Source: Thiobacillus sp.
Lineage (GTDB): Bacteria; Pseudomonadota; Gammaproteobacteria; Burkholderiales; Thiobacillaceae
Direction of reading: 5' to 3'
DNA: 47,766 nucleotides
Assembly (NCBI GenBank): GCA_018262815.1
Contig: JADFDN010000006.1
Location: 1 to 47,766, forward strand
Both the position numbers and the translations under genes were made by a program. The notes beneath the pieces were generated by a model. The model made no database searches. It worked only from the letters and a program-made list of their open reading frames with translations, and was not told the DNA's origin. This document shows, in pieces, positions 9,834 through 24,917 of the stretch. Within the stretch, counting starts at the first letter, position 1; the number at the start of each line of letters is the position of its first letter.

Positions 9834-10247
9834 TCAGGCCGGCGCGTAGGCGGCCTCCTTCATCACGCCCGCGAGCGTGCCGTAAGCAGTCGCCCAGGCG
9901 GTTTTCGTCTCGTCGGTGAAGGCCGAGCCCAGGCCCTGTTCCAGCGTCCACAGCAGCGCGGTGCCGACGGTGTCGTAGTGCTCGGCCTTGACGCCGTAGC
10001 CGACGTGGCGGCGCGCCATGTCCTGCGCGACGGGGACCAACTCGTCGAGCCGGGTGAGGCTGTTGACGATGAAGCCGAGGGCCTGCATGAGCTTCTTGCC
10101 CTGCGACTGCAGGTCGCCCTTGAACATGGGCTTGACCGCGGGATCGAGCGCGAACAGGCGTTGATAGAACAGGCCGGCGGCGGTGTCCTGGATGGGGACG
10201 ACGGATGCCCAGGAGGCCTGGATGAGGGAGATTTGCTGGGGGGTCAT
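9834..10247 (-). CDS. Single-domain globin (Vitreoscilla haemoglobin/flavohaemoglobin N-domain type)
   Basis: The 137-residue protein begins MTPQQISLIQASWASVVPIQ, the usual helix A of bacterial globins. It has FYQRLFALDPAVKPMFKGD for helices B-C and the proximal histidine in MARRHVGYGVKAEHYDTVG. There is no reductase domain, so it resembles VHb and not Hmp. Such globins bind oxygen or oxidise NO when a reductase is available. AAAGGA precedes the ATG at 10247, which overlaps the previous gene's stop (ATGA). As the last gene of a nitrate-linked cytochrome operon it may remove NO formed during nitrite reduction; this role is inferred. Confidence 0.88.
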   Translation of the reverse strand: MTPQQISLIQASWASVVPIQDTAAGLFYQRLFALDPAVKPMFKGDLQSQGKKLMQALGFIVNSLTRLDELVPVAQDMARRHVGYGVKAEHYDTVGTALLWTLEQGLGSAFTDETKTAWATAYGTLAGVMKEAAYAPA

Positions 10248-10582
10248 GGCGTATTCCTTTCGGGATTGACGGTTGAAATGATGTAGTCGACCGCAGCCAT
10301 GACTTCGGCGTCGGTCAATTCGGGTCGGCCGCCGCGCGGCGGCATTTCTTCGCCGGTGGGGCCGGTAAAGCCGTTGAGCGCACTGTGAACGAGCGCGTCG
10401 CGGCCCTTGGCGAGACGGGCCGTCCACATTGCGGGCTGCTTCAGCTGGGGGGCTTCGGACAGGTCGTTGGCGTGGCAGGCCGAGCAGACGCGGTCGACGA
10501 TGCGCTTGCCCTCAGGCGGCGCATCGGCGGCAGACCCTGCGCCTGCGACCAGACAGGCGGCGATCAAAAATGCGGCGCGCAT
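10244..10582 (-). CDS. Small periplasmic class I c-type cytochrome
   Basis: The 112-residue protein has an N-terminal signal peptide (MRAAFLIAACLVAGAGSAAD), one haem site (CSACH) and a probable methionine axial ligand in EEMPPRGGRPELTD. Size and pattern are those of a cytochrome c5/c551-type carrier. I took the ATG at 10582; a TTG three codons upstream is also possible. The stop overlaps the globin start. Its position after two multihaem or sensor-type cytochrome genes suggests that it shuttles electrons between that complex and other periplasmic partners. Confidence 0.85.
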   Translation of the reverse strand: MRAAFLIAACLVAGAGSAADAPPEGKRIVDRVCSACHANDLSEAPQLKQPAMWTARLAKGRDALVHSALNGFTGPTGEEMPPRGGRPELTDAEVMAAVDYIISTVNPERNTP

Positions 10583-10592
10583 CGCGACCAAC

Positions 10593-11153
10593 TCACTTGA
10601 CCGGCAGGCGCAGGACCACGCCGCCCATCACGTCGCCCATCTTGAAGTCCTTGCGCGGGCTGTCCTTGTGGTCGTTGTGGCAGCTGATGCATGCCTTGGC
10701 GATGGCCTTGTCGGGATAGATCGCGGTGAAGTACTTCTTGCCGCCGAGCGTTTCGGTCGTGTAGTAGGGATCGCCCTTCAGCACCGCTTCGAGGCCTGCC
10801 TTCTCGACCGGCGTCTTGGCGTTGTTCTGCTTGTTCACCGGCCACAGCGACAGCAGCGAGTAGCTGAACTTGGCGCCCTTCTCGGCCACCGCTTCCGAGC
10901 CGTAGCGGAACATCTGCGCCGGCAGCACCAGTGCCTTGTCGTCCTTCCAGTGCTCGCTCGCCTTGATCACCTTTTCCTGGTTCTGCAGGCGGTTGACGAT
11001 CAGCTTGGTGTAGACCGTCCGATCCGCCTCCATCACGCTGTGCAGCGCATCGGCGATGTCCTTGTGGTCCCAGTCCGCACCGTGCACGGGCGCGGCCAGA
11101 ACGGCGGCCACACCGGCCGCGACGAGGGGTGAAATGAGGTGAAGTTTCCGCAT
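10593..11153 (-). CDS. Monohaem cytochrome with Tll0287-like (DUF3365) domain
   Basis: The 186-residue protein has a signal peptide ending near PVHGAD and then a PAS-like DUF3365 (Tll0287) domain. The single haem site is near the C terminus (KACISCHNDHKDSPRKDF), followed by GDVMGGVVLRLPVK. This pattern is shared with free DUF3365 cytochromes and with haem-containing sensor domains. AAGGAG precedes the ATG at 11153. With a free protein and no kinase or GGDEF partner attached, an electron carrier or redox-sensing subunit are both possible. It is in the same operon as the eleven-haem cytochrome, 74 bases downstream. Confidence 0.8.
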   Translation of the reverse strand: MRKLHLISPLVAAGVAAVLAAPVHGADWDHKDIADALHSVMEADRTVYTKLIVNRLQNQEKVIKASEHWKDDKALVLPAQMFRYGSEAVAEKGAKFSYSLLSLWPVNKQNNAKTPVEKAGLEAVLKGDPYYTTETLGGKKYFTAIYPDKAIAKACISCHNDHKDSPRKDFKMGDVMGGVVLRLPVK

Positions 11154-11227
11154 GACCTGCTCCTTTTCAATGAACTGCAACACACACAAAACCCGCGATG
11201 CGGGGGATTCCTCGCCCGCAAGCGGGC

Positions 11228-12628
11228 TCATTCTTCGGCTTCATCCGGTTCGCCTGCGGCCTTGCGCGCGGTCGCGCGCTTCTCGGCTTCGAGCGCCATG
11301 CGGATGCTTTCGACCTGTTTGGCCGGAATGCCCTTGAAATTGCGCGCGACGAGCTTGCCATCGGCCAGTGCGTCGAGGCTGAACTGCAGGCCGTGGCAGT
11401 TCATGCACACGCTCCTGACCATCTTTTCGTTGGGGCGCAAGGTGTCGTTCTGGTTGTGCTGCACCAGCACGCGCGGTTCGTCTTCCGGCGTGATGATTTC
11501 GACGCGCGGCAGATGGCAGGTGGCGCACGACACGCCGCTGCCCTGGGCACCGCGGCCGCTGATTTCCTCGTGCCACAGGCTGAAGTGCGGCGAGGCCTTG
11601 TAGGCACGCGTGTGGCCGTCGTCGTGGCAAGTGAGACAGGCCTCGACCGCCGCCTTGCGCGTGTCGAAACGGTGCGAGCCGTGGCAGCTCATGCAGGTGA
11701 GCTTGGCGTGTGCGGCCGACGGTTTCATCGGCTGCTCGGCCATGCCCGGCTGCATCGGCGTCAGGCCCTGCTTCAGCCGCATGCCGTGCAGGCCGGTGAG
11801 GAAACCGTCGACTTCGGCCTGGTGGCAGCTGGTGCACGCGGTGTGGTCGGGCTTCCGGATCCAGGCCAGCGTGTCCGATTCGTCCTTGGCCTGGTGGCAG
11901 GACGAGCAGTTCACCCCGGCCTTGGCGTGCGCGGTGTGCTCCCACTCCTTCACCACCTGCGGCACCGGGCGCAACTCGGCGCGGCCGTCCATGTCGCTTG
12001 CAGTGATCGGCTCGCCATCGAGGTATTCCATGTAGACCATGAAGTCGCGCAGATGCCGCTCGGGCAGCTTGGGGTCGTTCTTGAGCTTGTCGCCCTGGCC
12101 GTGGCGGATCAGGAAGTCCTCGTACAGCGCGCGGTTGTCGTGGAAGTTGTGGCAGCCGCCGGTGGCGCAACCGGTGAACGCCATGCCCTTGTGGCTGGGG
12201 CGCTCCTTTTCGATGTCGGCATGGCAGCGCACGCAGAAGTCGTCCGGCAGCGTGACGCCGATGGGCCGCGTGATCTCGGCCTTGTGCTCGGTGTGGCAGC
12301 TCACGCACTGGCGCGCGTCGAGCTTGGCGAGCGTGTCGGCGTTGCGCGGGTCGGTGAACTTGCTGATGGGATGCGAGTCGTCCATCGCCTTCAGCTCCTT
12401 GGCGTGGCACGACAGGCAGGCGTCCTGGATGCCGGCGCCCCCCTTGAACGGCTCGGCATGGCAGGCCGCGCACTTGAGTTCGATCTGGTGGTGCGCGTGC
12501 GTCACCTTGCCGGGCATGAAGCTCGCCTGCTGCCCCGGCGTCTGGATCGCGTAGGCGAGCCAGGCGGCCAGCAGGCCGCTTGCACCCAGCCACACCAGCC
12601 ACACACGATATTGGGCGAGCCGTTTCAT
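11228..12628 (-). CDS. Membrane-anchored undecahaem c-type cytochrome
   Basis: The 466-residue protein has an uncleaved-looking N-terminal anchor (residues 9-28) and a periplasmic region with ten CXXCH motifs: CAACH, CLSCH, CVSCH, CVRCH, CSSCH, CTSCH, CMSCH, CLTCH, CATCH and CMNCH. An additional CATGGCH has four residues between the cysteines. That makes eleven likely haems. I do not recognise a named enzyme: there is no CXXCK catalytic haem as in NrfA and no P460-type signature. The C-terminal tail is charged and haem-free. The start shares one base with the stop of the preceding flavoprotein/cytochrome-b gene, so both are made together, which supports a physical complex. Role: electron transfer or an unknown reductase. 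Confidence 0.85.
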   Translation of the reverse strand: MKRLAQYRVWLVWLGASGLLAAWLAYAIQTPGQQASFMPGKVTHAHHQIELKCAACHAEPFKGGAGIQDACLSCHAKELKAMDDSHPISKFTDPRNADTLAKLDARQCVSCHTEHKAEITRPIGVTLPDDFCVRCHADIEKERPSHKGMAFTGCATGGCHNFHDNRALYEDFLIRHGQGDKLKNDPKLPERHLRDFMVYMEYLDGEPITASDMDGRAELRPVPQVVKEWEHTAHAKAGVNCSSCHQAKDESDTLAWIRKPDHTACTSCHQAEVDGFLTGLHGMRLKQGLTPMQPGMAEQPMKPSAAHAKLTCMSCHGSHRFDTRKAAVEACLTCHDDGHTRAYKASPHFSLWHEEISGRGAQGSGVSCATCHLPRVEIITPEDEPRVLVQHNQNDTLRPNEKMVRSVCMNCHGLQFSLDALADGKLVARNFKGIPAKQVESIRMALEAEKRATARKAAGEPDEAEE

Positions 12629-14574
12629 CAGTAGTAATACACCTTGAGGATGTGGAAGCCGAGCAGCACCGGCAGCGGCCACAGCAGCAGCGCGTGCAGC
12701 CATTGCAGCGCCGGCCGCAACGATGCCGCGCGCGCAAGCGCGAACCGGTGTTCACGGGTGAGGAAGAGCGCCAGCGCGATGCCGGTGAGCGAGGCGCCGA
12801 GCATGGCGAGCGCCAGCCACTGATTGAGGCCGTCGCCGCTGCGGCCACCGGTGTGCGCCCACAGCGTGGCGAGCGCGAGGCCGCCCGCCAGCGCGTGCAG
12901 CCAGCGCCAGTGCACGAAAGCCAGCCAGTCCAGTTTTTTCCAGCGCTTGCGCAGGCCGATCAGCGCAAGCAATGCCGCCAGCGCGAGCAGGCTGTAGCCG
13001 CTGACCTGCTTGATCAGGCCGTCGCGCCACAGGCGGTCCCAGTGCCAGGCGAGTTCTTCCGTGGATGCGTAGGGGATGTTGGCCGGCAAGGCGAACAGCA
13101 GCGCCAGACCCAGGGCCCACGCCGCCAGCCATCCCAGCCGCCGCGCCAGCGGCATCGGCTCGCGCGGGCCGCTGGCGCCGAGCAGGTTTTCGAGCAGCGG
13201 GCGACAGCTGCCGCATACGCCGCAGGCGCCGGTGCGCGCGGTGAGCGCACTGACGCTCTTGCATCCTCCCGCGATCGCTCCGGACAACTGGCCGCGCGTC
13301 ACGCCGGTGCAGTTGCACACCGTTGCCTCGGCCGGCCAGGTGGCGACCTGCCCGACCGCTTCGTTCCAGAGTTCGCCGCCGGCGCGAAAGCGCGCCGTCT
13401 GCCAGGGCCAGATGCGGCGCTGCTGCTGCACCGCTTCCTGCACCCGGGCCAGCTCGCGCCAGTCGCCCAGCGCCAGCGCGCCGATCAGCCGGCCGCGGCG
13501 GACGACCAGCTTGCGGTAAACGTCGTCGCTTTCATGAACATGCTCGCGCGCCAGGTCGGGGACGTCCCACGCACCGACTTCGCCCATGCTGAACACCGGC
13601 CAGTTCGCGACCTTGAGGCGGGTGGCCGAAAGCGACCCGAGATAGCGCACCGGCCGGCCGGCGCCATCGCCCGCGATGACGCGCGCCGCGACGGCGGCCT
13701 GCTCGAAGCCGGGCGCGACGAGCCCGTAGACCTGGCCGCGATGCTGGGCGCATTCGCCGACCGCATAGACATCCGGCGCACTGGTCTGCAGCGTGTCGTC
13801 GACCACGATGCCGCGCTGGAACACCAGGCCGGCGTCGCGCGCCAGCGAAATCTCGGGGCGGATCCCGGCGGCCAGCACCACCGTATCGCAATCGATTTCG
13901 CGACCGCTGCGCAGCCGCACGCCGGCGACGCGGCCCTCGCCCAGAATCGCCATCGGCCCGTCGTCGAGCACCACTTCGATCCCGCTCGCCTCGACCCGCT
14001 CGCGCATCCGCTGCGCTGCGGCCTCGTCGAGCTGGTTCGCCATCAGCCGTGGATGATGCTCGATCACCACCACTTCGGTGCGGTAGCGATGCAATGCGCG
14101 CGCCGTTTCCAGTCCCAGCAGCCCGCCGCCGATCACCGCCACCCGGCGGCAACGCGCCAGGCGCGCCTGCAGCGCCTCGGCATCGCCCAGGCCGCGGAAG
14201 TTGAACACCCCGGCCAGATCGGTGCCGGGAATTTCCGGCACGTGCGCGCGCGATCCGGTCGCCAGCACCAGCGCAGCATAGGGCTGCGCCCGGCCGTCTG
14301 CGTCGGTCACGCAATGCGCCGCCGGATCGATGGCGACGACGCGGCAGCCGAAACGCGCTTCGACGCCCTCCGGCAGCGCGAGTCCTTCGGTGAAGTCGGC
14401 CCAGTCCGCATCGCCGGCGAGCAGCGACGACAGCCGCACCCGGTTGTAGGGCTGCCAGGGCTCGTCGCCATAGAGCACGATCGGCACCTGCGGCAGGGCC
14501 TGGCGCAGCTCGACTGCCATGCGCACGCCGACCGGTCCTGCACCGACGATAACCAATGGGGCATGCGTGTGGAT
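12628..14574 (-). CDS. NasB/NasC-like FAD-NAD(P)H oxidoreductase with BFD [2Fe-2S] domain fused to a membrane cytochrome-b-like domain
   Basis: The protein has about 648 residues. Residues 8-400 are the FAD/NAD(P)H module of the NirB N-terminus and NasB/NasC: LVIVGAGPVGVRM, VAVIGGGLLGLETARAL and VYAVGECAQHRG. Residues about 418-467 are a BFD-like [2Fe-2S] domain (CNCTGVTRGQ then CGVCGSCRP). From residue 478 on there are about five membrane helices with paired histidines (HWRWLHALAGG, LWAHTGG, QWLHALLLW, GFHILKVYYY) that could bind haem b. No ATG, GTG or TTG lies between the leader terminator and the conserved fold except a TTG at 14556; AAGGGAG stands 6 bases before an ATC at 14574, which I used as a tentative start. 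The fusion would link cytoplasmic NAD(P)H with membrane haem and the co-transcribed periplasmic cytochromes. Confidence 0.8.
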   Translation of the reverse strand: MHTHAPLVIVGAGPVGVRMAVELRQALPQVPIVLYGDEPWQPYNRVRLSSLLAGDADWADFTEGLALPEGVEARFGCRVVAIDPAAHCVTDADGRAQPYAALVLATGSRAHVPEIPGTDLAGVFNFRGLGDAEALQARLARCRRVAVIGGGLLGLETARALHRYRTEVVVIEHHPRLMANQLDEAAAQRMRERVEASGIEVVLDDGPMAILGEGRVAGVRLRSGREIDCDTVVLAAGIRPEISLARDAGLVFQRGIVVDDTLQTSAPDVYAVGECAQHRGQVYGLVAPGFEQAAVAARVIAGDGAGRPVRYLGSLSATRLKVANWPVFSMGEVGAWDVPDLAREHVHESDDVYRKLVVRRGRLIGALALGDWRELARVQEAVQQQRRIWPWQTARFRAGGELWNEAVGQVATWPAEATVCNCTGVTRGQLSGAIAGGCKSVSALTARTGACGVCGSCRPLLENLLGASGPREPMPLARRLGWLAAWALGLALLFALPANIPYASTEELAWHWDRLWRDGLIKQVSGYSLLALAALLALIGLRKRWKKLDWLAFVHWRWLHALAGGLALATLWAHTGGRSGDGLNQWLALAMLGASLTGIALALFLTREHRFALARAASLRPALQWLHALLLWPLPVLLGFHILKVYYY

Positions 14575-14603: not shown

Positions 14604-14643
14604 AAAAAAACGGTGTCCTGGCGCGTACGCCACAAGACACCGT
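14604..14643 (-). terminator. Leader terminator (attenuator) of the cytochrome operon
   Basis: On the minus strand ACGGTGTC (14643-14636) pairs with GACACCGT (14617-14610), with a further TGGCG/CGCCA inside, and is followed by seven T residues. It lies about 30 bases before the first gene of the operon, so it must be bypassed for expression. Its 5' arm overlaps the second ANTAR-type hairpin, so the two cannot form together. Confidence 0.85.
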
Positions 14644-14682
14644 TGTCCCTGTCCGCCCTGCACAGCACTGCGCAGGACGGAC
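14634..14682 (-). promoter_or_regulatory. Two-hairpin ANTAR (NasR/NasT-type) antitermination element
   Basis: Hairpin 1 (14682-14651) has a 13-bp stem and the hexaloop AGUGCU. Hairpin 2 (14649-14634) has a 5-bp stem and the hexaloop AACGGU. Both loops have A at position 1 and G at position 4, the rule known for RNAs bound by ANTAR proteins. Two pairs in stem 1 are G-U and would be A-C mismatches in the other strand, so the minus-strand RNA is the functional one. One base separates the hairpins, and hairpin 2 overlaps the terminator. NasT or NasR would stabilise the hairpins when nitrate is present. Confidence 0.8.
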
Positions 14683-14693
14683 ACTCAAGCCAA

Positions 14694-14709
14694 AGCAGAG
14701 AGCGTGCCA
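14694..14709 (-). promoter_or_regulatory. Sigma-54 promoter of the cytochrome operon
   Basis: The minus strand reads TGGCACGCTCTCTGCT, which matches TGGCACG-N4-TTGCW at all but one base and keeps the GG-N10-GC spacing. Transcription would begin near 14683, that is, at the first base of the ANTAR hairpin 1. Confidence 0.75.
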
Positions 14710-14793
14710 AGCGCATCGCAGCCCGCGAAGCCGCGTCTGCACGCGATAGCTACGCCTCGTGGTGCGCCGCCATGCTTCTCGATCGGGCACGCC

Positions 14794-15036: not shown

Positions 15037-16716
15037 TCAGCTTGTCAGCAGCAGGAACAGCAGGATCAGATTCAGCGCGATCGAGACCGCGGCCACGAGC
15101 GGCCAGGCGCCGGCCGGCGAGCGTTCGATCAGCGGCGCGCGGCGGCGCAGCAGCGGGCTGGCTTCGCCGCGCTCCAGCGCGAGCAGCATTTCCTCGGCGG
15201 TCTCGAAGCGCTGCGCGGGATCGCGTGCGACGGCCTTGAGGAGGACGTTTTCCAGCCAGGGCGGCAGGTCGGGCCGGGTGCGCGCGGGCGGCACCGGCTC
15301 GCCGAACCTGGGATGCTGGAACGGCTCGATTTCGCCGTACGGGTATTTGCGCGTGAGCAGGTGATACAGGGTGGTGCCGATCGCGTAGAGGTCGGTTTGC
15401 GCATTGGCCTCGGCGCCGGCGAACAATTCGGGCGCCATGAAGCTGGGGGTGCCGGGCTGGGCGTGGTCTTCGCGCGCGTCGAGCGTGGGGCAGCGCGCGA
15501 CGCCCAGATCGAGGATGCGCAGCTTGCCCTCGTTGTCGACGTGCAGGTTGGCGGGCTTGAGGTCGCGGTGGACGATGTCGAGCCGGTGCAGCGCGGCGAT
15601 CCCCTTCAGCATGCGGATGCCGAGCGTGACGACCTCGACCGGCGAAAAGTGCTGGCCGGCATCGAGCTTGTCCTGCAGCGTGGCGCCGTCGAAATAGCGC
15701 ACCGCCAGATAGAGGAAATTGCGTCCGGGCAGCGGCAGCACCTCGGGAAAATAATGCGAGTGCACCCGCTTCAGGAACCACTCTTCGGCGAGCAGCCGGC
15801 TCGCGGCGGCGGCATCGCCCGCGAGCACCGGCTGCAGGGTCTTGAGCGCCCAGCGCTGGCCGGTGTCGGCATGGCGCGCGCGGTAGATCAGGGTGTCGCG
15901 GCTGCTGTGAAGCTCGGCTTCGATGATGAAGTCGTCGAGCCGCGCGCCGGGCTGCAGCCGGCCCGGCAGCGGCAGGTCGGTCGCGTCGACCAGCGGCGCG
16001 TCGGCCTCGCCGACGGCGACGACACGCGCGACCAGGGCGCTGGCGTTGTCCTGCCCGCCGCGCCCGTGGGCCGCTGCCACCAGGGCCTCGGCGGCGCGCT
16101 GCGGCGCGTCGTACAGCTTCAGCAGGCGGTGCAGTTCGAGCTGGCCGAGCGGCTCCCACACGCCGTCGCAGACGATGAGAAAGACGTCGCCCGCACACAG
16201 CTCGCCCTCGCCGAAATCCGGCAGCACATGCGTGTCGAGACCGAGCGCGCGCTTCAGCACGTGCGACATGCCGGGCGTTTCCCACACGTGGTCGCGGGTC
16301 AGCGCGTCGAGCGTTTCGCCGCGCAGGCGATACAGCCGGCTGTCGCCGACGTGGGCGTAGTGGTAGCGGCGGCCACGCAGCACCAGCGCGGTGAGCGTGG
16401 TTGCCATGCCGCCCGGATCGACGCGCGACGCGGTCTGCCCGTGCAGCCAGCGGTTGATGGCACCGAGCACCGTTGCCAGCGCGCGCGGAATCTCCCAGGT
16501 GTCGGGGGTGGCATAGTAATCGGCCAGCAGGTTGCGCACCGAGGATTCGGCCGCTTCGCGGCCATGCGTGCCGCCCGACACGCCGTCGGCCACCACCGCG
16601 AGCATGCCCTTGGTCGCCGCCAGTCCCGCATCCGGCTCGACGAAACCGCCGTAATCCTCGTTCCGCTCGCGCGGCCCGGTCGCGGTGGCGTAGCCGAATT
16701 GGAGGGTAAGGGGCAT
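15037..16716 (-). CDS. Bifunctional PP2C-type phosphatase / Ser-Thr protein kinase of nitrate-assimilation clusters
   Basis: The 559-residue protein joins a PP2C phosphatase (residues 5-235) to a protein kinase (about 255-510), with one C-terminal membrane helix (WPLVAAVSIALNLILLFLLL). Phosphatase motifs are RERNEDYGG, VVADGVSGGTHG, HVGDSRLYR and GQDNASALVA. Kinase motifs are the VAIK-type lysine in RWALKTL, the catalytic loop HRDLKPANL, DLGVAR in place of DFG, and APELF. The glycine-rich loop is degenerate (EAELHSSRDTLIYRA), though lysine and catalytic residues are kept. Homologues lie in nas operons of many proteobacteria, with no settled substrate. Eleven copies of a heptamer abut the start codon and no ribosome-binding site is visible. 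Confidence 0.9.
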   Translation of the reverse strand: MPLTLQFGYATATGPRERNEDYGGFVEPDAGLAATKGMLAVVADGVSGGTHGREAAESSVRNLLADYYATPDTWEIPRALATVLGAINRWLHGQTASRVDPGGMATTLTALVLRGRRYHYAHVGDSRLYRLRGETLDALTRDHVWETPGMSHVLKRALGLDTHVLPDFGEGELCAGDVFLIVCDGVWEPLGQLELHRLLKLYDAPQRAAEALVAAAHGRGGQDNASALVARVVAVGEADAPLVDATDLPLPGRLQPGARLDDFIIEAELHSSRDTLIYRARHADTGQRWALKTLQPVLAGDAAAASRLLAEEWFLKRVHSHYFPEVLPLPGRNFLYLAVRYFDGATLQDKLDAGQHFSPVEVVTLGIRMLKGIAALHRLDIVHRDLKPANLHVDNEGKLRILDLGVARCPTLDAREDHAQPGTPSFMAPELFAGAEANAQTDLYAIGTTLYHLLTRKYPYGEIEPFQHPRFGEPVPPARTRPDLPPWLENVLLKAVARDPAQRFETAEEMLLALERGEASPLLRRRAPLIERSPAGAWPLVAAVSIALNLILLFLLLTS

Positions 16717-16862: not shown

Positions 16863-18074
16863 CTAAACCCTTGCCCCCGACACCGCCACCGCGCCCCAGG
16901 TGGTGCGCCAGCGGGCCTTCACCACGCTGAGGCCGGCGAGTGCGACGAAGCACAGGCCGGCGAAGATCAGCAGGCCGATCTGGTAGTCGCCGGTCTGCCC
17001 CTTGATATAGCCGAGGCTGGCGGCCAGGTAGAAGCCGCCGACGCCGCCTGCCATGCCGACCATGCCGGTCATCACGCCGATCTCCTTGCGGAAACGCTGC
17101 GGCACCAGCTGGAACACCGCACCGTTGCCGAAGCCTAGCGTGCCCATGGCGAGCATGAAGACGAAGAGCGCCAGACCCGCATTCGGCGCGCCGAAGCTGG
17201 CGACGATGAGGAACACGCCGGCGAGCGTGTACACCGTCAGCAGGGTGCGGATGCCGCCGATGCGGTCGGCGAGCATGCCGCCCATCGGGCGCACCAGCGA
17301 TCCGGCGAAGACGCAGGCGGCGGTGAAGTAGCCTGCCTGCACCGGCGCCATGCCGTACTCGTCGTTGAAGTAGATGGTGAGGCTGGAGGCCAGCCCGACG
17401 AAGCCGCCGAAGGTGACGAAGTAGAAGAACATGAACCACCAGGCATCGCGGTCCTTCAGCACCGCCATGTACTGGTGCAACGACTTCGGCGGCGGGCAGT
17501 CGGGCGCATCCTTGGCGAACATGAGATACACCAGGAAGGCCACGCCGACCGGGATCAGCGCGATGCCGAACACGTTGCCCCAGCCGAACGCGACGGCGAG
17601 ACCGGGCGCGAACAGGGCGGCGAACACGGTGCCGGAATTGCCCGCACCGGCAATACCCAATGCGGTGCCCTGGTGCTGCGGCGGATACCAGCGCGACGCC
17701 AGCGGCAGCGCGACCGCGAAGGCCGCACCGGCAAAGCCCAGCAGCACGCCGAGCACGAGCACCTCGCGGTAGCTGTGGATGCCGCCGAGCCAGGCCCAGG
17801 CGAGACCGCCGATCACCACCAGCTGGCCGATCAGTCCGGCCATTTTCGGCTTGAAATGGTCGACCAGCACGCCCATCACAATCCGCAGCAACGCACCGGC
17901 GAGCACGGGTGTGGCCACCATCATGCCCTTCTGCGCGGCGGAGAGATCAAGGGTTTGTGCGATCTGCACACCCAGGGGACCGAGCATCACCCACACCATG
18001 AAGGCGATGTCGAAGTACAGAAATGCAGATAACAGGGTAGGCGTATGCCCCGACTTCCAGAAGTCGCGTGTCAT
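16863..18074 (-). CDS. narK: Nitrate/nitrite transporter, NarK/NasA family (MFS)
   Basis: The 403-residue protein has twelve predicted membrane helices and the two nitrate signatures of the NNP family, GIAGAGNSGTVFAALF and GMVGMAGGVGGFYLA, as well as LASRWYPPQHQGTALG. It would import nitrate or exchange nitrate and nitrite across the inner membrane. It lies between nirD and the kinase/phosphatase gene and is probably cotranscribed with nirBD; a GGCAGGGC/GCCCTGCC hairpin (18091-18110) lies in the gap after nirD and may adjust mRNA stability. With the nrtD-type ABC system the organism has two nitrate uptake routes. Confidence 0.92.
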   Translation of the reverse strand: MTRDFWKSGHTPTLLSAFLYFDIAFMVWVMLGPLGVQIAQTLDLSAAQKGMMVATPVLAGALLRIVMGVLVDHFKPKMAGLIGQLVVIGGLAWAWLGGIHSYREVLVLGVLLGFAGAAFAVALPLASRWYPPQHQGTALGIAGAGNSGTVFAALFAPGLAVAFGWGNVFGIALIPVGVAFLVYLMFAKDAPDCPPPKSLHQYMAVLKDRDAWWFMFFYFVTFGGFVGLASSLTIYFNDEYGMAPVQAGYFTAACVFAGSLVRPMGGMLADRIGGIRTLLTVYTLAGVFLIVASFGAPNAGLALFVFMLAMGTLGFGNGAVFQLVPQRFRKEIGVMTGMVGMAGGVGGFYLAASLGYIKGQTGDYQIGLLIFAGLCFVALAGLSVVKARWRTTWGAVAVSGARV

Positions 18075-18140: not shown

Positions 18141-18473
18141 TCAGGCCGCGGCGGCGCTGACCGAGGAAAGGTCGAGCCAAACACGCCCGCTCTCGAGCCT
18201 GACGGGAAACTCGCGCGCGCAGCCTTCGTCCGGCGCGACGGCGCAGCCGGATGCCAGCTCGACATTCCAGCCGTGCATCGGGCAGGTCACCTTCCTGCCG
18301 TGCACGATGCCCTGCGACAGGGGGCCGCCCTTGTGCGGGCAGCGGTCTTCCAGCGCGAACACTTCGTCGTCGGCGGTGCGGAACACCGCGATGTCTAGGT
18401 TGCCGTGACGCACCACGCGTGCGCCGAGTCTGGGGATGTCGTTCACATCCAGGATGTCGGTCCATTGGTTCAT
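18141..18473 (-). CDS. nirD: Assimilatory nitrite reductase small subunit, Rieske type
   Basis: The 110-residue protein contains the Rieske-like [2Fe-2S] ligands CPHKGG and CPMHGW in normal spacing, so here the cluster ligands are kept (they are lost in some NirD proteins). It begins MNQWTDILDVNDIPRLGARV. The gene follows nirB by nine bases. NirD is the small partner of NirB in NAD(P)H-dependent reduction of nitrite to ammonium in the cytoplasm. Confidence 0.94.
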   Translation of the reverse strand: MNQWTDILDVNDIPRLGARVVRHGNLDIAVFRTADDEVFALEDRCPHKGGPLSQGIVHGRKVTCPMHGWNVELASGCAVAPDEGCAREFPVRLESGRVWLDLSSVSAAAA

Positions 18474-18482
18474 GTCGGCTCC

Positions 18483-20939
18483 TTATGCGGCGACGGTTTC
18501 GAATTCATGCTTGAGCTTGCCTTCCTTGGCGCGCTCGACCCAGGGGTCGCGCTCGACCGACAGCGCGAACAGCAGGCGCTCGTACAGCGCGCGCCGGCCT
18601 TCGTTGTCGTCGAGGATTTTTTTCTTCACGTAGTCGAGGCCGACGCGCTCGAGGTAGTGGACGGTGCGGTCGAGGTAGCGCGCCTCTTCGCGGTACAGCT
18701 GCAGGAAGGCGCCGGAGTATTCCAGCACCTCGTCGGGCGTCTTCACCTTGACGAGGAACTGCGCGACCTCGGTCTTGATGCCGCCGTTGCCGCCGACGTA
18801 GATTTCCCAGCCGGAATCGACGCCGATGATGCCGACGTCCTTGATCGCGACCTCGGCGCAGTTGCGCGGGCAGCCGGATACCGCGAGCTTGACCTTGTGC
18901 GGCGCCCACATCTTGAAGAACACCTTTTCCAGGTCGATGCCCATCTGGGTCGAATCCTGGGTGCCGAAACGGCACCATTCGGAGCCGACGCAGGTCTTCA
19001 CCGTGCGCAGCGCTTTTCCGTATGCATGGCCGGAAGGCATGTCGAGGTCGGCCCACACCTTGGGCAGGTCTTCCTTCTTCACCCCGAGCAGATCGATGCG
19101 CTGACCGCCGGTGACCTTGACCGAGGGAATGGCATATTTCTCGGCGACGTCGGCGATGCGGCGCAACTCGGACGGCGTGGTCTGCCCGCCCCACATGCGC
19201 GGGATCACCGAGTAGGTGCCGTCGCGCTGGATGTTGGCATGCGCGCGCTCGTTGATGAAGCGCGACTGCGGGTCGTCCTCGGCTTCGCCCGGCCAGGTGG
19301 AGATCAGGTAGTAGTTGAGCGCCGGACGGCAACTGGCGCAGCCGTTGGGCGTGCGCCATTCCATGAAGGTCATGACCTGCGGGATCGTCAGCAGCTTGTT
19401 CTGACGGATCGCGTCGCGCACCGCTTCGTGGGTGTGGTCGGTGCAGCCGCACATCGATTTCGTCTTCGGCGCGGCGGAATAGTCGCCGCCTGCGGTGACC
19501 GCGAGGATCTGTTCGACCAGTCCCGTGCACGAGCCGCACGACGACGAGGCCTTGGTGTGCTTCCTGACATCTTCCAGCGTGAACAGGCCTTTCTCGCGGA
19601 TCGCCTTGACGATGTCGCCCTTGCACACGCCGTTGCAGCCGCACACCTCCATGTCGTCGGTCATGGTCGCGGCCTTGTTGATGCCCTGGTGGCCGAGGTT
19701 GCCGCAATGATCCTGCCCGAACATCAGATGATCGCGCAGCTCGGACACGTCCTTGCCGTCGCGCAGCAGCGAGAAATACCAGGCGCCGTCGACGGTATCG
19801 CCGTACATGACGCCGCCGACCAGCTTGTTGTCCTTGATAACGAGCTTCTTGTAGACGCCGCCGATGGGATCGGAATAGAGGATCGCCTCGGTGCCCTCGC
19901 CGCCGATGAAGTCGCCGGCCGAGAACAGGTCGATGCCGGTGACCTTGAGCTTGGTCGAGGTCACCGAGCCCTGGTAGCGGCCGATGCCGTAATGCGCCAG
20001 ATGATTGGCGCACACCTTGGCCTGCTCGAACAGCGGCGCGACCAGGCCGTAGGCGGTGCCGCGATGTGCGGCGCATTCGCCGATGGAATAGATGCGCGGA
20101 TCGAAGGTCTGCATGGTGTCGTTGACGACGATGCCGCGGTTGCAGTGCAGGCCGGCCGACTCGGCGAGTTCGGTGTTGGGGCGGATGCCGACGGCCATGA
20201 CGACCAGATCGGCCGGCGCGGAATCGCCATCCTTGAACGTGATCGCGGCCACTCTCCCGCTCTCTCCGCGCACCAGTTCCGCAGTCTGCTTCTGCAGCAG
20301 GAACTTCATGCCCTTCTCTTCCAGGCTCTTCTGCAACAGGCGCGCGGCGGGTTCGTCGAGCTGGCGCTCCATCAGCCACGGGGCGATGTGCACCACGGTC
20401 ACGTCCATGCCCCGCTTCATCAGGCCGTTGGCGGCTTCGAGGCCCAGGAGCCCGCCGCCGATGACGACCGCGTGGCGATACTGGCTGGACGCGCGGATCA
20501 TCGCGTCGACGTCGGCGATGTCGCGGAAGCTGATCACGCCATCGAGGTCGGCGCCGGGAACCGGCAGGATGAAAGGATTGGAGCCGGTAGCGAGCAGCAG
20601 GCGGTCGTATTCGGCACGGGTGCCGTCCTCGGCTTCCACGACACGCGCAGAACGGTCGATCTTCACCACCTTGCGGCCCATATGCAGGGTGATGGCATTT
20701 TCCTGGTACCAGTCGAGCGGGTTCAGCACGATGTCGTCGACCGTCTGCTCGCCGGCGAGCACCGGCGACAGGAGGATGCGGTTGTAGTTGGGGTGCGGCT
20801 CGGCGCCGAACACGGTGATGTCGTAGAGGTCGGGCGCCAGCTTCAGCAATTCCTCCAGCGTGCGCACCCCGGCCATGCCGTTGCCGATCATCACGAGATT
20901 CATCTTGGGACCCTGTCCCATGGGCGTACTCATATCCAT
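18483..20939 (-). CDS. nirB: NAD(P)H-dependent assimilatory nitrite reductase large subunit
   Basis: The 818-residue protein has the full NirB layout. It starts with an FAD/NAD-binding half (LVMIGNGMAGVRTLEELL, VVIGGGLLGLEAANGL, IYSIGECAAHRG) and a BFD-type [2Fe-2S] region near residue 430-470 (CGCNGVCKGDIV, SCGSCTGLVE). A second cysteine set (MCGCTDH, GCASCRPALNY) follows near 500-535. The sirohaem/[4Fe-4S] domain has CVGSEWCRFGT near 651 and GCPRNCAE near 690. It reduces nitrite to ammonium with six electrons. The ATG at 20939 has GGAG seven bases before it. A sigma-54 promoter lies at 21015-21030, leaving a leader of about 65 bases without ANTAR-type hairpins. Confidence 0.96.
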   Translation of the reverse strand: MDMSTPMGQGPKMNLVMIGNGMAGVRTLEELLKLAPDLYDITVFGAEPHPNYNRILLSPVLAGEQTVDDIVLNPLDWYQENAITLHMGRKVVKIDRSARVVEAEDGTRAEYDRLLLATGSNPFILPVPGADLDGVISFRDIADVDAMIRASSQYRHAVVIGGGLLGLEAANGLMKRGMDVTVVHIAPWLMERQLDEPAARLLQKSLEEKGMKFLLQKQTAELVRGESGRVAAITFKDGDSAPADLVVMAVGIRPNTELAESAGLHCNRGIVVNDTMQTFDPRIYSIGECAAHRGTAYGLVAPLFEQAKVCANHLAHYGIGRYQGSVTSTKLKVTGIDLFSAGDFIGGEGTEAILYSDPIGGVYKKLVIKDNKLVGGVMYGDTVDGAWYFSLLRDGKDVSELRDHLMFGQDHCGNLGHQGINKAATMTDDMEVCGCNGVCKGDIVKAIREKGLFTLEDVRKHTKASSSCGSCTGLVEQILAVTAGGDYSAAPKTKSMCGCTDHTHEAVRDAIRQNKLLTIPQVMTFMEWRTPNGCASCRPALNYYLISTWPGEAEDDPQSRFINERAHANIQRDGTYSVIPRMWGGQTTPSELRRIADVAEKYAIPSVKVTGGQRIDLLGVKKEDLPKVWADLDMPSGHAYGKALRTVKTCVGSEWCRFGTQDSTQMGIDLEKVFFKMWAPHKVKLAVSGCPRNCAEVAIKDVGIIGVDSGWEIYVGGNGGIKTEVAQFLVKVKTPDEVLEYSGAFLQLYREEARYLDRTVHYLERVGLDYVKKKILDDNEGRRALYERLLFALSVERDPWVERAKEGKLKHEFETVAA

Positions 20940-21145: not shown

Positions 21146-22111
21146 TTACGCGGCTGCGCGTCCGAACCCGTTGATGGCGGTGATGGCACGTGCCTGATTG
21201 AGATCCTCGGTATAGCCCGCCGCGTACAGGCACACCGCCAGCTGGTTGCGGATCGGCAGCGGCAAGGGCAGATGGTCGCGCATGATCTTGTCTATCCATG
21301 CGCCGGTGGCCCGGGCGTCCACCTCGGGCAGATTCGCCGGCGCGGACGCGGTCGATTGCGCCTCGTATACCGGCTGTCCCTGCCCGTCCTGCACCAGCAC
21401 CATGTCAGGCCGCTGCAGCGGGTCGGCGAACGCCTCGCCTTCGCAGCCTTGCAGCAGCAGCGCGTGCCCGCCCATGGCCTCCAGGACCTCGCGCGTCGGT
21501 GCGATCTCCGCACCTGACAACACCGGGGTGACCCGCACCGAATGCTCGCCCGCCACGTCGGCCAGCGCAGCCAGCCGCGTCACCCAGCCGTCGATGCCCA
21601 GCCGCGACCGCAGCGCCAGCAGCGAAGCCAGGCCCGGGCTCAGCAATGCCACCGGAGCAAACGCGATGCCATCGTCCAGCAACCGCGCATTGGCCTGCAC
21701 GACCGTTGCACACGGCATGATGCCGAGCTCGCGCAGCACATAGGCCGCCGCCGTACCGCCGCCCCCTTCGAGCACGCCGTGGATCAGCACCGGGATGCCG
21801 AAGCTCTTCAGCAGCAGCGCCAGCAGCGGGGTCAGATGCGGATGCGTGCGCACGCCGTGATAGGTCGGCAGCACGACGGTGCGGAAGGGGCCGGACGGTG
21901 CGACGAAACCCGGCAGCCGCTCGGCCAGCGCGGCGTGCAGGCCGAGCCAGGCATCCACCCCGGGATCGTGCTGATTGAAAGCGATCAGGAAGGCCGCGGT
22001 TTCCAGTTCCGGCACGCCGCCGTCGAGCAGCGCCGCGCCCAGCGCGCGCGCCTCGACATAGCCGAGGCCTTCGCCGGCTTCGATCTGACGGATGAGGGTC
22101 GCGTAGCTCAT
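21146..22111 (-). CDS. ybiB: YbiB/TrpD2-like protein (anthranilate phosphoribosyltransferase fold)
   Basis: The 321-residue protein has the TrpD fold pattern: an N-terminal helical domain (MSYATLIRQIEAGEGLGYVE), then HGVRTHPHLTPLLALLLKSF and the loop VLIHGVLEGGGGTAAAYVL. YbiB binds nucleic acid without sequence specificity and does not make tryptophan in E. coli. It is regularly found between nasA and nirB in beta-proteobacterial nitrate clusters. AAAGGC lies close before the ATG. It has no own sigma-54 promoter that I can see and is probably read from nasA. Its function in nitrate assimilation is unknown. Confidence 0.85.
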   Translation of the reverse strand: MSYATLIRQIEAGEGLGYVEARALGAALLDGGVPELETAAFLIAFNQHDPGVDAWLGLHAALAERLPGFVAPSGPFRTVVLPTYHGVRTHPHLTPLLALLLKSFGIPVLIHGVLEGGGGTAAAYVLRELGIMPCATVVQANARLLDDGIAFAPVALLSPGLASLLALRSRLGIDGWVTRLAALADVAGEHSVRVTPVLSGAEIAPTREVLEAMGGHALLLQGCEGEAFADPLQRPDMVLVQDGQGQPVYEAQSTASAPANLPEVDARATGAWIDKIMRDHLPLPLPIRNQLAVCLYAAGYTEDLNQARAITAINGFGRAAA

Positions 22112-22235: not shown

Positions 22236-24917
22236 TCATGCCGCCACCCGATTCCCGGCGATCAGCCGCTTCAGTTCCGGCACGCACGAGCCGCATTCGG
22301 TGCCGCATTTCAGCCCGGCCTGCAGCGTGGCCAGATCGGCGCCCGCTGCAATCGCGGCGACGATGTCGGGTTCGGCCACGTTCAGGCAGTTGCACACCAC
22401 GCGCCCCCGTCCGGCCCCGCCTGCCGGCGGCCGCGCCACCGGGGCCAGCATCCAGGCGCGCAGCGCGGCCGCCTCCATGCCTTCGACGATGACGTCACGC
22501 AGCCAGTCGAAGGCGGCGGTCTCGCCGGTGAGCCGCGCGGCGGTCACCTTGCCGCCATCCACCCGCACTTTCTTCGATATGCCGCGCAGCCCGTCCTGGT
22601 ATTGCATCACCGCGAGCGGATCGTCCAGTCCCAGTGCGGCGTCGAGTTCCGCCAGCAGGGATTCCGGCAGCGGCTGCGTGTGCGCCAGACGCAGCGTCAG
22701 CACGTCCCGGTCGCGCCCCGCCAGTCCGGCGGCCGCGAAGTCGCAGGCGCGCAGCAGCGGCTGCACGGCGTCGAGCAGCGCCGCACCGTCCCCCACCGCC
22801 AGCGCGGCCATATGCCAAGGCAGTTCGGCCTTCGCCACCTGTACCGCGGCGTGCTTGAGTTCGGGCTGCTTCGACACCGCGTCGAACACCGGCAGGGTCA
22901 GCGCGTTGATCCCGCGCCCGCCCATGAAGCGCGCGCCCCAGTGCATCGGCAGGAAGCACTGGCCGGGGCGTACGCTCTCGCTCGCCTCGACCGCGACGAC
23001 CACCTCGCCGCGCCGGCTTTTCACGCGCACCAGGTCGCCGGCTTTCAGCCGCCGCAATTCGAGGTCGCGCGCGTTCATCGCCAGCGCCGGCGTGTCGGCA
23101 TGGGCGAACAGTCGCGCCACGCGGCCGGTCCGGCTCATCGCGTGCCACTGGTCGCGCAGGCGTCCGGTGTTGAGATGCAAGGGATAGCGTGCATCGATCG
23201 CCTCGGCCACCGGCCGGTACGGCGCGGCATGGAAGCGCGCGCGGCCGCTGGCCGTCGGGTAGAGGCCGTCAGCATAGAGGCGCGCCTTGCCTGCCGTCTC
23301 GCCCTCGGGGAACGGCCATTGCTGCGGGCCGGCATCGAGCAGCGCATAGGAGAGCCCTGTGATGTCGAGGTCGCGCCCGCGCGTGGTCTCGCGGTGCTCG
23401 TCGAACACGGCTTCGGCGCTGGCGTAGGGAAACAGCCGCGCGCCCTTGTCCGGGTCGAGCCGCCGCGCGAAATCGCAGACGATGTTCCAGTCGGCGCGCG
23501 CCTCGCCCGGCGGCGGCACGGCGGCATGAATGCGCGAAATGCGGCGCTCGGAATTGGTCATCGTGCCTTCCTGCTCGCCCCAGCTGGCGGCGGGCAGCAG
23601 CACGTCGGCGAACGGCGCGGTTTCGGTGTCGGCAAAGGCTTCCTGCAGCACGACGCATTCGGCGGCCTGCAGTGCCTCGTGCACAAGATTCTGGTCGGGC
23701 AGCGACTGCGCGGGGTTGGTGCAGGCGATCCAGATCGCCTTGATCTCGCCGCGCCTCACCGCCTCGAACAGTTCCACCGCGGTCTTGCCCGGCGTTGCGG
23801 GCACGTCGTCCACGCCCCATAGCCGCGCGACTTCGGCGCGATGCTCGGGGTCGTTCATGTCGCGGTGCGCAGACATCAGGTTCGCCAGCCCCCCCACCTC
23901 GCGCCCGCCCATCGCGTTGGGCTGGCCGGTAAGCGAGAGCGGCGCGGCGCCGGGCTTGCCGATCTGCCCGGTGGCCAGGTGCAGGTTGATCAGGGCGGCA
24001 TTCTTGTCGACGCCGCAGCTCGATTGGTTCAGCCCCTGGCAATACAGCGACAGCGTCGGCCCGGCGGCGAACCAGCGCGCAGCCTGCACGATGTCGCCTG
24101 CCGCCACGCCGCAGATCGCCGCGGCCTTTTCCGGGGTGTAGTCGCGCACCCGGTCGCGCAGCGCTTCCCAGCCCTCGGTGTGGGCGGCGATCGTGGCGCG
24201 GTCGATCAATTCCTCCCACAGCATGACGTTGAGCATCGCGTGGAACAGCGCGACGTCAGTGCCGGGCAGGATGGCCAGATGCAGGTCGGCCTCGGCCGCG
24301 GTGTCGGTGCGACGCGGATCGACCACGACGAGCTTGAGCCCGGGGTTGGCCTTCCTCGCCGCCTCGATGCGGCGGAACAGGATGGGGTGCGCATAGGCCG
24401 TGTTCGAGCCGGCGATGAAAATCGTGCCGGCCGCCTCGATGTCGTCGTAGCAGCCCGGCGGAGAATCCGCCCCGAGGGTGGCCTTGTAGCCCGCCACGGC
24501 GGACGACATGCACAGGCGCGAATTGGTGTCGACGTTGTTGGTTCCGATCAGCCCCTTGGCGAGCTTGTTGAAGACGTAATACGCCTCGGTGGTGAGCTGG
24601 CCGGAAATGTAGAAGGCCACGGCGTCGGGGCCGTGTTCGTCGATGACCGCGCGGAACGTCCCGGCGGCATGATCGAGCGCCGCCTCCCAGCTGACGCGTT
24701 CGCGCTGCGATCCTCGCTCGGTCCGCAGCTCGGGAACCCGCGCGCGTCCGGACGCAGCCGCCGACAGATGCAGCGTCGCGCCCTTGGTGCACAGCTTGCC
24801 GCGGTTGGCCGGATGCGCAGGATCGCCGCGCACGCCGGTGATTTTCCCGGCGTCGGATTCGATCAGCACCCCGCAGCCGGTGCCGCAATAACAGCAGACA
24901 GATGAAACGACAGACAT
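22236..24917 (-). CDS. nasA: Assimilatory nitrate reductase catalytic subunit
   Basis: The 893-residue protein is a molybdopterin oxidoreductase. It has an N-terminal [4Fe-4S] site (C8, C11, C15 in VCCYCGTGCG and C43 in KLCTKG), the molybdenum cysteine near residue 133 (SRLCMSSAVAG) and a C-terminal BFD-like [2Fe-2S] domain from about residue 842 (CNCLNVAEPDI, CGTECGSCVPEL). There is no Tat signal, so it is cytoplasmic. It reduces nitrate to nitrite. The BFD tail is the electron entry site used with NasB/NasC diaphorases or ferredoxin. GAGGAG stands five bases before the ATG and a sigma-54 promoter lies just upstream. No separate NasB/NasC gene is present in the window apart from the flavoprotein fusion at 12628-14574. 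Confidence 0.95.
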   Translation of the reverse strand: MSVVSSVCCYCGTGCGVLIESDAGKITGVRGDPAHPANRGKLCTKGATLHLSAAASGRARVPELRTERGSQRERVSWEAALDHAAGTFRAVIDEHGPDAVAFYISGQLTTEAYYVFNKLAKGLIGTNNVDTNSRLCMSSAVAGYKATLGADSPPGCYDDIEAAGTIFIAGSNTAYAHPILFRRIEAARKANPGLKLVVVDPRRTDTAAEADLHLAILPGTDVALFHAMLNVMLWEELIDRATIAAHTEGWEALRDRVRDYTPEKAAAICGVAAGDIVQAARWFAAGPTLSLYCQGLNQSSCGVDKNAALINLHLATGQIGKPGAAPLSLTGQPNAMGGREVGGLANLMSAHRDMNDPEHRAEVARLWGVDDVPATPGKTAVELFEAVRRGEIKAIWIACTNPAQSLPDQNLVHEALQAAECVVLQEAFADTETAPFADVLLPAASWGEQEGTMTNSERRISRIHAAVPPPGEARADWNIVCDFARRLDPDKGARLFPYASAEAVFDEHRETTRGRDLDITGLSYALLDAGPQQWPFPEGETAGKARLYADGLYPTASGRARFHAAPYRPVAEAIDARYPLHLNTGRLRDQWHAMSRTGRVARLFAHADTPALAMNARDLELRRLKAGDLVRVKSRRGEVVVAVEASESVRPGQCFLPMHWGARFMGGRGINALTLPVFDAVSKQPELKHAAVQVAKAELPWHMAALAVGDGAALLDAVQPLLRACDFAAAGLAGRDRDVLTLRLAHTQPLPESLLAELDAALGLDDPLAVMQYQDGLRGISKKVRVDGGKVTAARLTGETAAFDWLRDVIVEGMEAAALRAWMLAPVARPPAGGAGRGRVVCNCLNVAEPDIVAAIAAGADLATLQAGLKCGTECGSCVPELKRLIAGNRVAA

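Follow-up and report, generated by a model that had tools for sequence, protein, structure and literature searches.

A conserved gene cluster for a putative flavocytochrome b and an eleven-haem cytochrome, associated with nitrate assimilation in Thiobacillus and other bacteria

The window analysed here is the whole 47.8 kb contig JADFDN010000006.1 of a Thiobacillus draft genome (G000; 2.5 Mb, 82% complete), and it contains a cluster of five genes, all on the minus strand at 9834-14556, that encode predicted electron-transfer proteins and a globin. In the order of transcription these are a NirB-like flavocytochrome fusion, an eleven-haem cytochrome, a Tll0287-type haem protein, a small cytochrome c, and the globin:

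12628..14556, minus strand: gene 1, flavocytochrome fusion, with a NirB-like module for flavin adenine dinucleotide (FAD) and reduced nicotinamide adenine dinucleotide (phosphate) (NAD(P)H), a BFD [2Fe-2S] domain, and a C-terminal five-helix domain with His 561/575 and 628/642
12628..13155, minus strand: five-helix putative dihaem cytochrome b domain of gene 1 (alignment and AlphaFold)
11228..12628, minus strand: gene 2, membrane-anchored eleven-haem c-type cytochrome (motifs, alignment and AlphaFold)
10593..11153, minus strand: gene 3, stand-alone Tll0287-like (DUF3365, sCache_heme) single-haem c protein (Pfam)
10244..10582, minus strand: gene 4, small monohaem cytochrome c (Pfam)
9834..10247, minus strand: gene 5, single-domain globin (Pfam; nearest solved chain 3wfw, expectation value (E) 2e-36)

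A sequence-only reading of this DNA had described five same-strand, mostly overlapping genes. The five genes are real, as judged by their Pfam and NCBIfam matches, and overlaps are present at two of the four junctions (1 base at the first and 4 bases at the last), the second and third junctions being gaps of 74 and 10 bases. By eye, a short GC hairpin followed by TTTT lies between the eleven-haem and Tll0287 genes (11187-11204) and is a possible partial terminator. No description of the five-gene set was found in an open-licence library of papers, which leaves subscription papers outside the search.

The comparisons below use 80 loci, drawn from the 197 relatives that came to light when 84,980 species genomes were scanned with a pattern. 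By the taxon names of their records they span about eight phyla, and include Proteobacteria (three classes), Poribacteria, Verrucomicrobia, Nitrospirota, Myxococcales, Dadabacteria, two acidobacterial groups, and Planctomycetes. Of the 80 loci, 79 have the fusion or a minimum of its C-terminal part, 78 the Tll0287 gene, and 36 the cytochrome c, and the fusion and eleven-haem genes lie less than 200 bases apart on one strand in 76 of the 78 loci measured. Gene order is kept across phyla, and the genes are conserved together, so that a lack of joint conservation, named as a refutation in the sequence-only reading, is not borne out; pairwise-identity correlations between cluster genes are moderate (0.36 to 0.75) and are not proof of joint descent. 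When 120 genomes, G000 among them, were searched, 12 had matches at E <= 1e-3, four of these being weak matches to multihaem proteins. The eight real carriers comprise seven within the genus (G000 among them) and G118 of another family, and all have the five genes in the same order. One copy, in the fragmented congener assembly G008 (L026, G008:C42), is broken by frameshifts in the fusion and eleven-haem genes, reflecting either assembly error or decay. Of 369 genomes sampled evenly across the window's class, 27 (G000 included) have the eleven-haem gene, so it is not rare. A phage or plasmid origin of the cluster was considered and rejected, there being no relative among viral contigs or plasmids.

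The flavoprotein part of gene 1 matches Pyr_redox_2 (E 5e-61), Rubredoxin_C, and Fer2_BFD. Its closest NCBIfam model is NirB, of which only positions 1-469 of 794 are matched, under the cut-off, and the NirB sirohaem/4Fe-4S reductase domain is not matched in the fusion. Translation is predicted to start either at TTG (14556) or at a non-standard ATC (14574), the latter being the start chosen in the sequence-only reading and having by eye the better-spaced ribosome-binding sequence. The AlphaFold model (mean predicted local distance difference test score (pLDDT) 91.5) has five C-terminal helices, and Foldseek identifies the flavoprotein part as a BphA4-type ferredoxin reductase. We aligned the window protein with 58 of 79 homologues, chosen by length, lack of stops, and redundancy; histidines 561, 575, 628, and 642, spaced 14 apart on each of two helices, are invariant in 59/59, as are the four [2Fe-2S] cysteines. 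The earlier proposal of a FAD-NAD(P)H-[2Fe-2S] module joined to a five-helix, histidine-bearing domain is thus borne out, and the expected haem ligands have not been lost from the homologues. Its statement that no other such flavoprotein gene lies in the window is not strictly correct, as the NirB gene described below has the same module and 36111-37247 encodes a NorW-like rubredoxin/flavorubredoxin reductase with a rubredoxin-binding domain (341 bits; NorW cut-off 392).

The C-terminal 175 residues of the window fusion match no Pfam family at E <= 1. Three relatives give sub-cut-off matches to DUF4405, Ferric_reduct, or Ni_hydr_CYTB (E 0.005 to 0.15), L077 scoring E 0.07 with Ferric_reduct (PF01794), but matches of similar strength to families with no relation to these also occur (Cation_ATPase_C, 0.002; COX7C, 0.06). 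No structural match for this domain is present among the best 50 of 1607 Foldseek matches, which are flavoproteins throughout. We propose that it binds two putative b haems through the invariant histidines and represents a putative new domain family. It stands alone in L064 and L077; in the latter (L077:3128-10952) the stand-alone cytochrome b and the eleven-haem gene follow genes for a DmsB/DmsC-like fusion, a NasA-like enzyme, and NarK, and there is no flavoprotein part. In a Polyangium locus (L101:5071-8964) a long low-complexity insert separates the [2Fe-2S] and cytochrome b domains within a single open frame.

A dihaem b domain could conduct in both directions, and some carriers are, by the names of their records, of Thiobacillus type or metagenome-assembled genomes from biocathodes. 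One might therefore imagine electrons flowing inward, from periplasmic cytochromes through the b haems to NAD(P)H or a cytoplasmic partner, sparing lithoautotrophs the costly production of NADH. We regard this as decidedly improbable, as NirB-type modules normally oxidise NAD(P)H and the carriers also include records named Alcanivorax and Spongiibacter, which are heterotrophs.

The product of gene 2 has one N-terminal hydrophobic helix and eleven haem motifs, ten CXXCH and one CX4CH (residues 154-160), which include every one of its 22 cysteines. All eleven motifs are invariant in the 67 proteins aligned (the window and 66 of 80 relatives, chosen as for the fusion, two of the 68 so selected being left out), in keeping with the membrane-anchored eleven-haem cytochrome first described; ten further histidines are invariant and two more are conserved in at least 90%. 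In the haem-free AlphaFold model (mean pLDDT 83.9) the C-terminal half is well predicted, and much of the N-terminal half less so. Its single Foldseek match with E <= 0.001 is hydroxylamine oxidoreductase 6t5e (E 8e-4; template-modelling (TM) scores 0.28/0.30), with nitrite reductases as weaker matches, and the latter agree with a weak match to octahaem nitrite reductases in a PDB profile search (E 2e-5).

The gene 3 product matches PF11845, and the CXXCH cysteines are present in 79/79 Tll0287-like proteins. Among the relatives (L027-L106) the sole other frequent cysteine (58/79) lies in the signal-peptide region and has the look of a lipobox, which suggests that most homologues are lipoproteins; it is not present in the window copy. 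A Tll0287 profile matched nothing in the PDB. Members of this family are reported to bind c haem, a fused member lacking the axial cysteine binding nitric oxide (NO) tightly and a stand-alone member with that cysteine binding it weakly (PMC12889525, a preprint). The window protein has no cysteine beyond its two in CXXCH, and hence no axial one, and NO binding by it is therefore possible.

A single-domain globin is encoded in 55 of the 80 loci, and a truncated-haemoglobin cluster (representative PF01152) is found in eight loci, all within the 25 lacking the single-domain globin (Fisher p 4e-5), such that 63/80 have a globin of either family. Five of these eight also hold a ferredoxin-reductase-type flavoprotein. 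The proposed link with a globin is strengthened accordingly, and the replacement of one globin by an unrelated one argues that a globin function is wanted. There is a precedent in Bradyrhizobium, where NO is reported to be a by-product of assimilatory nitrate reduction that is countered by the globin Bjgb and the flavoprotein Flp (PMC4724949).

Different genes occupy this end of the cluster in a few loci. In L044 (11481-13476) the cytochrome c gene is followed, in the usual place of the globin, by genes for a CoxB-like protein and for a divergent subunit I (PF00115) of a haem-copper oxidase, and neither protein has a match in the other 79 loci at E 1e-4. An Fe/Mn superoxide dismutase gene directly follows the Tll0287 gene in L098 (11018-11614), and by the look of the frame a very similar one follows the cluster in L103. 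Together with the small cytochrome c within the operon, these genes would fit a role as a valve for excess reductant, by which electrons from NAD(P)H drain into a pool of periplasmic cytochromes and a terminal oxidase while nitrogen limits growth. Such a role seems quite unlikely, as an oxidase is present in only one of the 80 loci and the link with the globin is not explained.

The region upstream of gene 1 has the features of a regulated leader:

14695..14710, minus strand: sigma54-type -24/-12 promoter element TTGGCACGCTCTCTGC, aligning with the like element in the Rfam P11 consensus
14651..14682, minus strand: P1 hairpin with hexaloop AGUGCU (A at position 1, G at position 4), an ANTAR-type recognition loop by the loop rule reported in PMC3369931
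14634..14649, minus strand: P2 hairpin (hexaloop AACGGU), which overlaps the terminator in its 5' arm
14604..14644, minus strand: intrinsic terminator, a stem followed by seven U (-22.8 kcal/mol), mutually exclusive with P2

ANTAR proteins are described as binding two small hairpins whose hexaloops have A at position 1 and G at position 4, and the NasR-regulated nasF leader of K. oxytoca has both hexaloops, the second at the 5' base of the terminator (PMC3369931). The window leader has the same layout, with two such hexaloops, and the 5' arm of its terminator contains the P2 loop and the P2 3' arm. We screened leaders with an attenuator rule (a terminator plus a hairpin with an AnnGnn hexaloop) and for the sigma54 element, both screens having been devised after viewing the window leader and the P11 alignment. 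Among 16 window genes the terminator and hexaloop occur together only before gene 1. In 75 family leaders a terminator was found in 27 and a terminator plus hexaloop in 19, compared with 34 and 2 among 749 shuffles; for 516 other genes the numbers are 29 and 14. Twelve of those 14 belong to the nrtA/nasS cluster and so provide an internal positive control; with control matches mostly at nitrate-assimilation genes, the rule thus detects nitrate-assimilation genes, and this operon. The sigma54 element is present in 23/75 family leaders (8/1498 shuffles), including 12 of the 19 attenuator-positive ones, and in 25/513 other genes, of which 19 are in the nrtA/nasS cluster, two are NarK, and one is NirB. 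The window is counted in both the 19 and the 23, and the leader counts include near-duplicate loci (L031/L032, L038/L039, L088/L089, L098/L103, and L100/L102).

Rfam P11, which we take to be the NalA leader, matches over the window leader at full length with 29.6 bits, below its gathering score of 70, and the promoter element and P2 both fall within the alignment; at the gathering level no Rfam family matches anywhere in the window. Among six relatives for which the searched stretch contains the leader, three have a P11 match immediately ahead of gene 1 (L020, 31.7 bits; L023, 26.2; L024, 25.7; all below gathering), and two other matches, in L023 and L024, lie just before an nrtA-type gene. 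The sub-gathering matches have E values of 0.003 to 0.55. An ANTAR gene lies within about 15 kb of the cluster in all six relatives searched (G031, G044, G051, G118, G023, and G038), and an Rrf2-type regulator is found near six of the 80 loci, five of them verrucomicrobial. Control of the operon by a sigma54 promoter and a NasT/NasR-type protein is likely on this evidence, and control by nitrate or nitrogen is strongly suggested.

The flanks of the 80 loci, with clusters named by the profile of one representative each, include a nitrate-type ATP-binding cassette ATPase (31 loci), an NrtA/NasS-like binding protein (30), an NrtB-like permease (23), and an ANTAR response regulator (23). Several loci have nasT just before gene 1 or after the globin, or nrtA just after the globin; NirB is near the cluster in five loci, not counting the flavoprotein of the fusion itself, and a NasA-like gene is inside the fetched stretch in eight. 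Eleven haems might suggest extracellular electron transfer to metals or electrodes in the manner of porin-cytochrome systems, and undecahaem cytochromes are reported from Uet complexes (PMC5371394, PMC10734462). This is hardly probable at all: the commonest flanks lack a porin or an outer-membrane cytochrome, save for a porin-like cluster near 8/80 loci, the conserved set has no porin as judged from a scan of part of the window genes, and the leaders and neighbours indicate nitrate assimilation instead.

In the window the cluster is preceded by a minus-strand run of genes in the order NasA-like, YbiB, NirB, NirD, NarK, and PP2C/kinase, followed by a gap of about 480 bases:

22236..24917, minus strand: NasA-like molybdopterin enzyme that itself ends in a BFD [2Fe-2S] domain, named by context and this domain
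21146..22111, minus strand: YbiB-like protein
18483..20939, minus strand: NirB
18141..18473, minus strand: NirD
16863..18074, minus strand: NarK-type nitrate/nitrite transporter (285 bits; model cut-off 312)
15037..16716, minus strand: PP2C phosphatase/Ser-Thr kinase fusion

No NCBIfam nitrate-reductase model passes its cut-off on the NasA-like enzyme, which scores 500 and 475 bits with the NasA and NasC models and 551 with the formate dehydrogenase alpha model, all under cut-off. Directly upstream of it is a gene for a PAS-GAF-GGDEF protein (25076-26473); according to a review, cyclic di-GMP weakens NasT binding to the nirBD leader (PMC12830290). A Crp/Fnr-type regulator is encoded at 28766-29470.

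NasA-like and formate-dehydrogenase-like proteins were separated at E 1e-115, a line set after viewing the match lists, and the co-occurrence statistics ignore shared ancestry. A NasA-like gene is present in 46 of 50 carriers (selected from the 80 for diversity and sequence extent, with congeners left out) and in 59/143 genomes of the class sample. Inside that sample 12/14 carriers have it versus 47/129 others (Fisher p 8e-4, taking the 143 as within the 369), and for verrucomicrobial carriers the count is 6/6 versus 13/75 other genomes in a class sample drawn around a verrucomicrobial carrier (one formate-dehydrogenase-like match is uncounted, and the 75 may include carriers). In G031, G044, G051, and G118 one contig carries both the cluster and NasA, some 10 to 29 kb apart; in G023 and G038 the two are on separate contigs. 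A link due solely to chance proximity to NasA in the window was considered, and was set aside in favour of these comparisons with other genomes. The link of the cluster to nitrate use that the sequence-only reading drew is well supported by these genomic patterns, together with the NasT/NasR-type leader and the nrt and nasT neighbours.

That reading had gone further and cast the fusion as a possible stand-in for NasB/NasC, passing electrons from NAD(P)H or the periplasm to the cytoplasmic NasA. The NasB-like module with its BFD domain, the frequency of NasA-like genes in carriers, the co-directional NasA and NarK genes of the window, and the L077 arrangement all accord with this. Within the genus, however, orthologous NasA (at least 71% identity) is present in 40/56 genomes, only six of which have the eleven-haem gene, and the remaining 34 lack both this gene and the fusion. 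Other flavoprotein matches in the genus (E <= 1e-50, such that weaker flavoproteins would escape) are NirB-like by length and extent, so NasA there uses something else. Separate NasB-like flavoproteins are encoded directly beside NasA in five carriers (G126, G143, G152, G153, and G154) and about 19 kb from it in G160, the window NasA has a BFD domain of its own, and eleven periplasmic haems would be left without a reason. The stand-in role is accordingly unlikely; the congeners and the separate NasB-like proteins argue that the module is an addition to nitrate assimilation rather than an indispensable donor.

The reading that we prefer, and to which we give very nearly an even chance, is that of an accessory transmembrane redox module of nitrate assimilation, an outward conduit from NAD(P)H to the periplasm that handles NO and nitrite by-products. 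It draws on the invariance of the putative haem-b histidines, of the [2Fe-2S] cysteines, and of all eleven haem motifs, on the conservation of the unit in 80 loci, and also on the leader and sigma54 statistics, the P11 matches, the ANTAR genes, the co-occurrence with NasA, the globin in 63/80 loci, and the Bradyrhizobium precedent. Transcription would start from the sigma54 promoter under nitrogen limitation, and the leader terminator, in the window and part of the family, would be passed only when a NasT/NasR-type ANTAR protein binds the two hexaloops in the presence of nitrate. Judging from the domains, we infer that electrons from NAD(P)H would most likely reach FAD, then the [2Fe-2S] centre, and then cross the membrane by way of the two b haems; in the periplasm the eleven-haem cytochrome would take them up and hand them on to the Tll0287-type protein and the small cytochrome. 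The periplasmic end and the cytoplasmic globin may jointly handle NO and nitrite escaping from nitrate assimilation, with the globin as the cytoplasmic arm, an NO dioxygenase, and the cytochrome side either a reductase or the feeder of one. This role is the likeliest of several, with about an even chance, as judged from context.

Several observations weigh against this proposal. By the attenuator rule no attenuator is seen in 56/75 family leaders, nor in L088 (Alcanivorax sp. DSM 26293), and P11 matched neither the gene 1 leader in three of six relatives (L021, L022, and L025) nor three further leaders (L038, L049, and L079). No ANTAR protein was matched in the 82% complete G000, and the same search matched none of 14 control genomes. 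A nitrate-assimilation gene lies within about 9 kb in only 32/80 loci by a strict rule (many contigs being short), four of the 50 carriers have no NasA match, and 17/80 loci have no globin of either kind, several of these contigs also being short. The window eleven-haem protein has no CXXCK (active-site) haem, its twelve extra conserved histidines could provide two-sided ligation of each haem, and no catalytic site was identified in its sequence.

Nitrate assimilation is treated as a cytoplasmic pathway, yet a cluster linked to it through its kind of leader, its neighbours, and its co-occurrence would couple eleven haems outside the membrane to NAD(P)H. This suggests an electron branch that has gone unrecognised and that probably serves NO or nitrite by-products, and if this is true, assimilatory nitrate reduction would own a transmembrane respiratory branch; we know of no nas system with one. 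Taken as a whole, and tentatively at somewhat below an even chance, we suggest an undescribed inner-membrane complex that occurs in about eight phyla. Its NirB-type flavoprotein, its cytochrome b domain of a new family, and its eleven-haem cytochrome would deliver electrons from NAD(P)H to the periplasm, and the complex, under NasT/sigma54 control and accompanied by a globin that can be exchanged, would be devoted to nitrate assimilation.

Comparison with known systems places the complex as follows. The fusion shares the FAD/NAD(P)H fold and BFD [2Fe-2S] cysteines of NasB/NasC and the N-terminal module of NirB, but whereas NasB/NasC is free and NirB is joined to a sirohaem domain, here the module is joined to a membrane cytochrome b. 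NasB/NasC is soluble without membrane helices and is needed by NasA; the fusion has five C-terminal helices, and its distribution among NasA-bearing congeners does not fit such a need. The NOX and ferric reductase flavocytochromes b pass electrons from NAD(P)H to FAD and two b haems on paired helices, and the His-X13-His arrangement on each of two helices is common to them and the fusion, which would thus operate in a similar way. Unlike these, the fusion has a flavodomain of the ferredoxin-reductase (BphA4/NirB) class rather than the FNR class and a multihaem cytochrome as neighbour, and Ferric_reduct (PF01794) is not matched in the window fusion. Octahaem nitrite reductase, NrfA, and hydroxylamine oxidoreductase have weak sequence and fold likeness to part of the eleven-haem protein, which differs from them in its lack of CXXCK, its eleven haems, its membrane anchor, and TM-scores of at most 0.30. 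An undecahaem cytochrome in an electron-transfer gene set is common to the cluster and the Uet/Mtr porin-cytochrome complexes, but no porin was found in the conserved set here, which has a predicted inner-membrane flavocytochrome partner and a nitrate-type leader. Like the stand-alone CXXCH Cache-type proteins of the Tll0287/sCache_heme class, which are given redox roles, the window gene 3 product stands alone, and it lacks the axial cysteine of Tll0287 and the P. putida protein, in that resembling the NO-binding class (PMC12889525). The narK-bjgb-flp-nasC operon of Bradyrhizobium, a nitrate-assimilation operon controlled by NasT, likewise pairs the gene of a single-domain globin with that of an NAD(P)H flavoprotein; its Flp is described as of the cytoplasmic NAD(P)H-dependent type, and neither a cytochrome b domain nor an eleven-haem cytochrome nor a Tll0287 protein is mentioned in the sections of that report concerned with it (PMC4724949). 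The NalA leader of Pseudomonas nirBD, a NasT target, is reported to combine a sigma54 promoter with an antitermination leader, as here (PMC3973561, PMC12830290), although NalA precedes nirBD whereas this leader precedes a flavocytochrome operon. The complex thus belongs to none of the redox families tested, and is a variant of the theme of nitrate assimilation plus NO handling.

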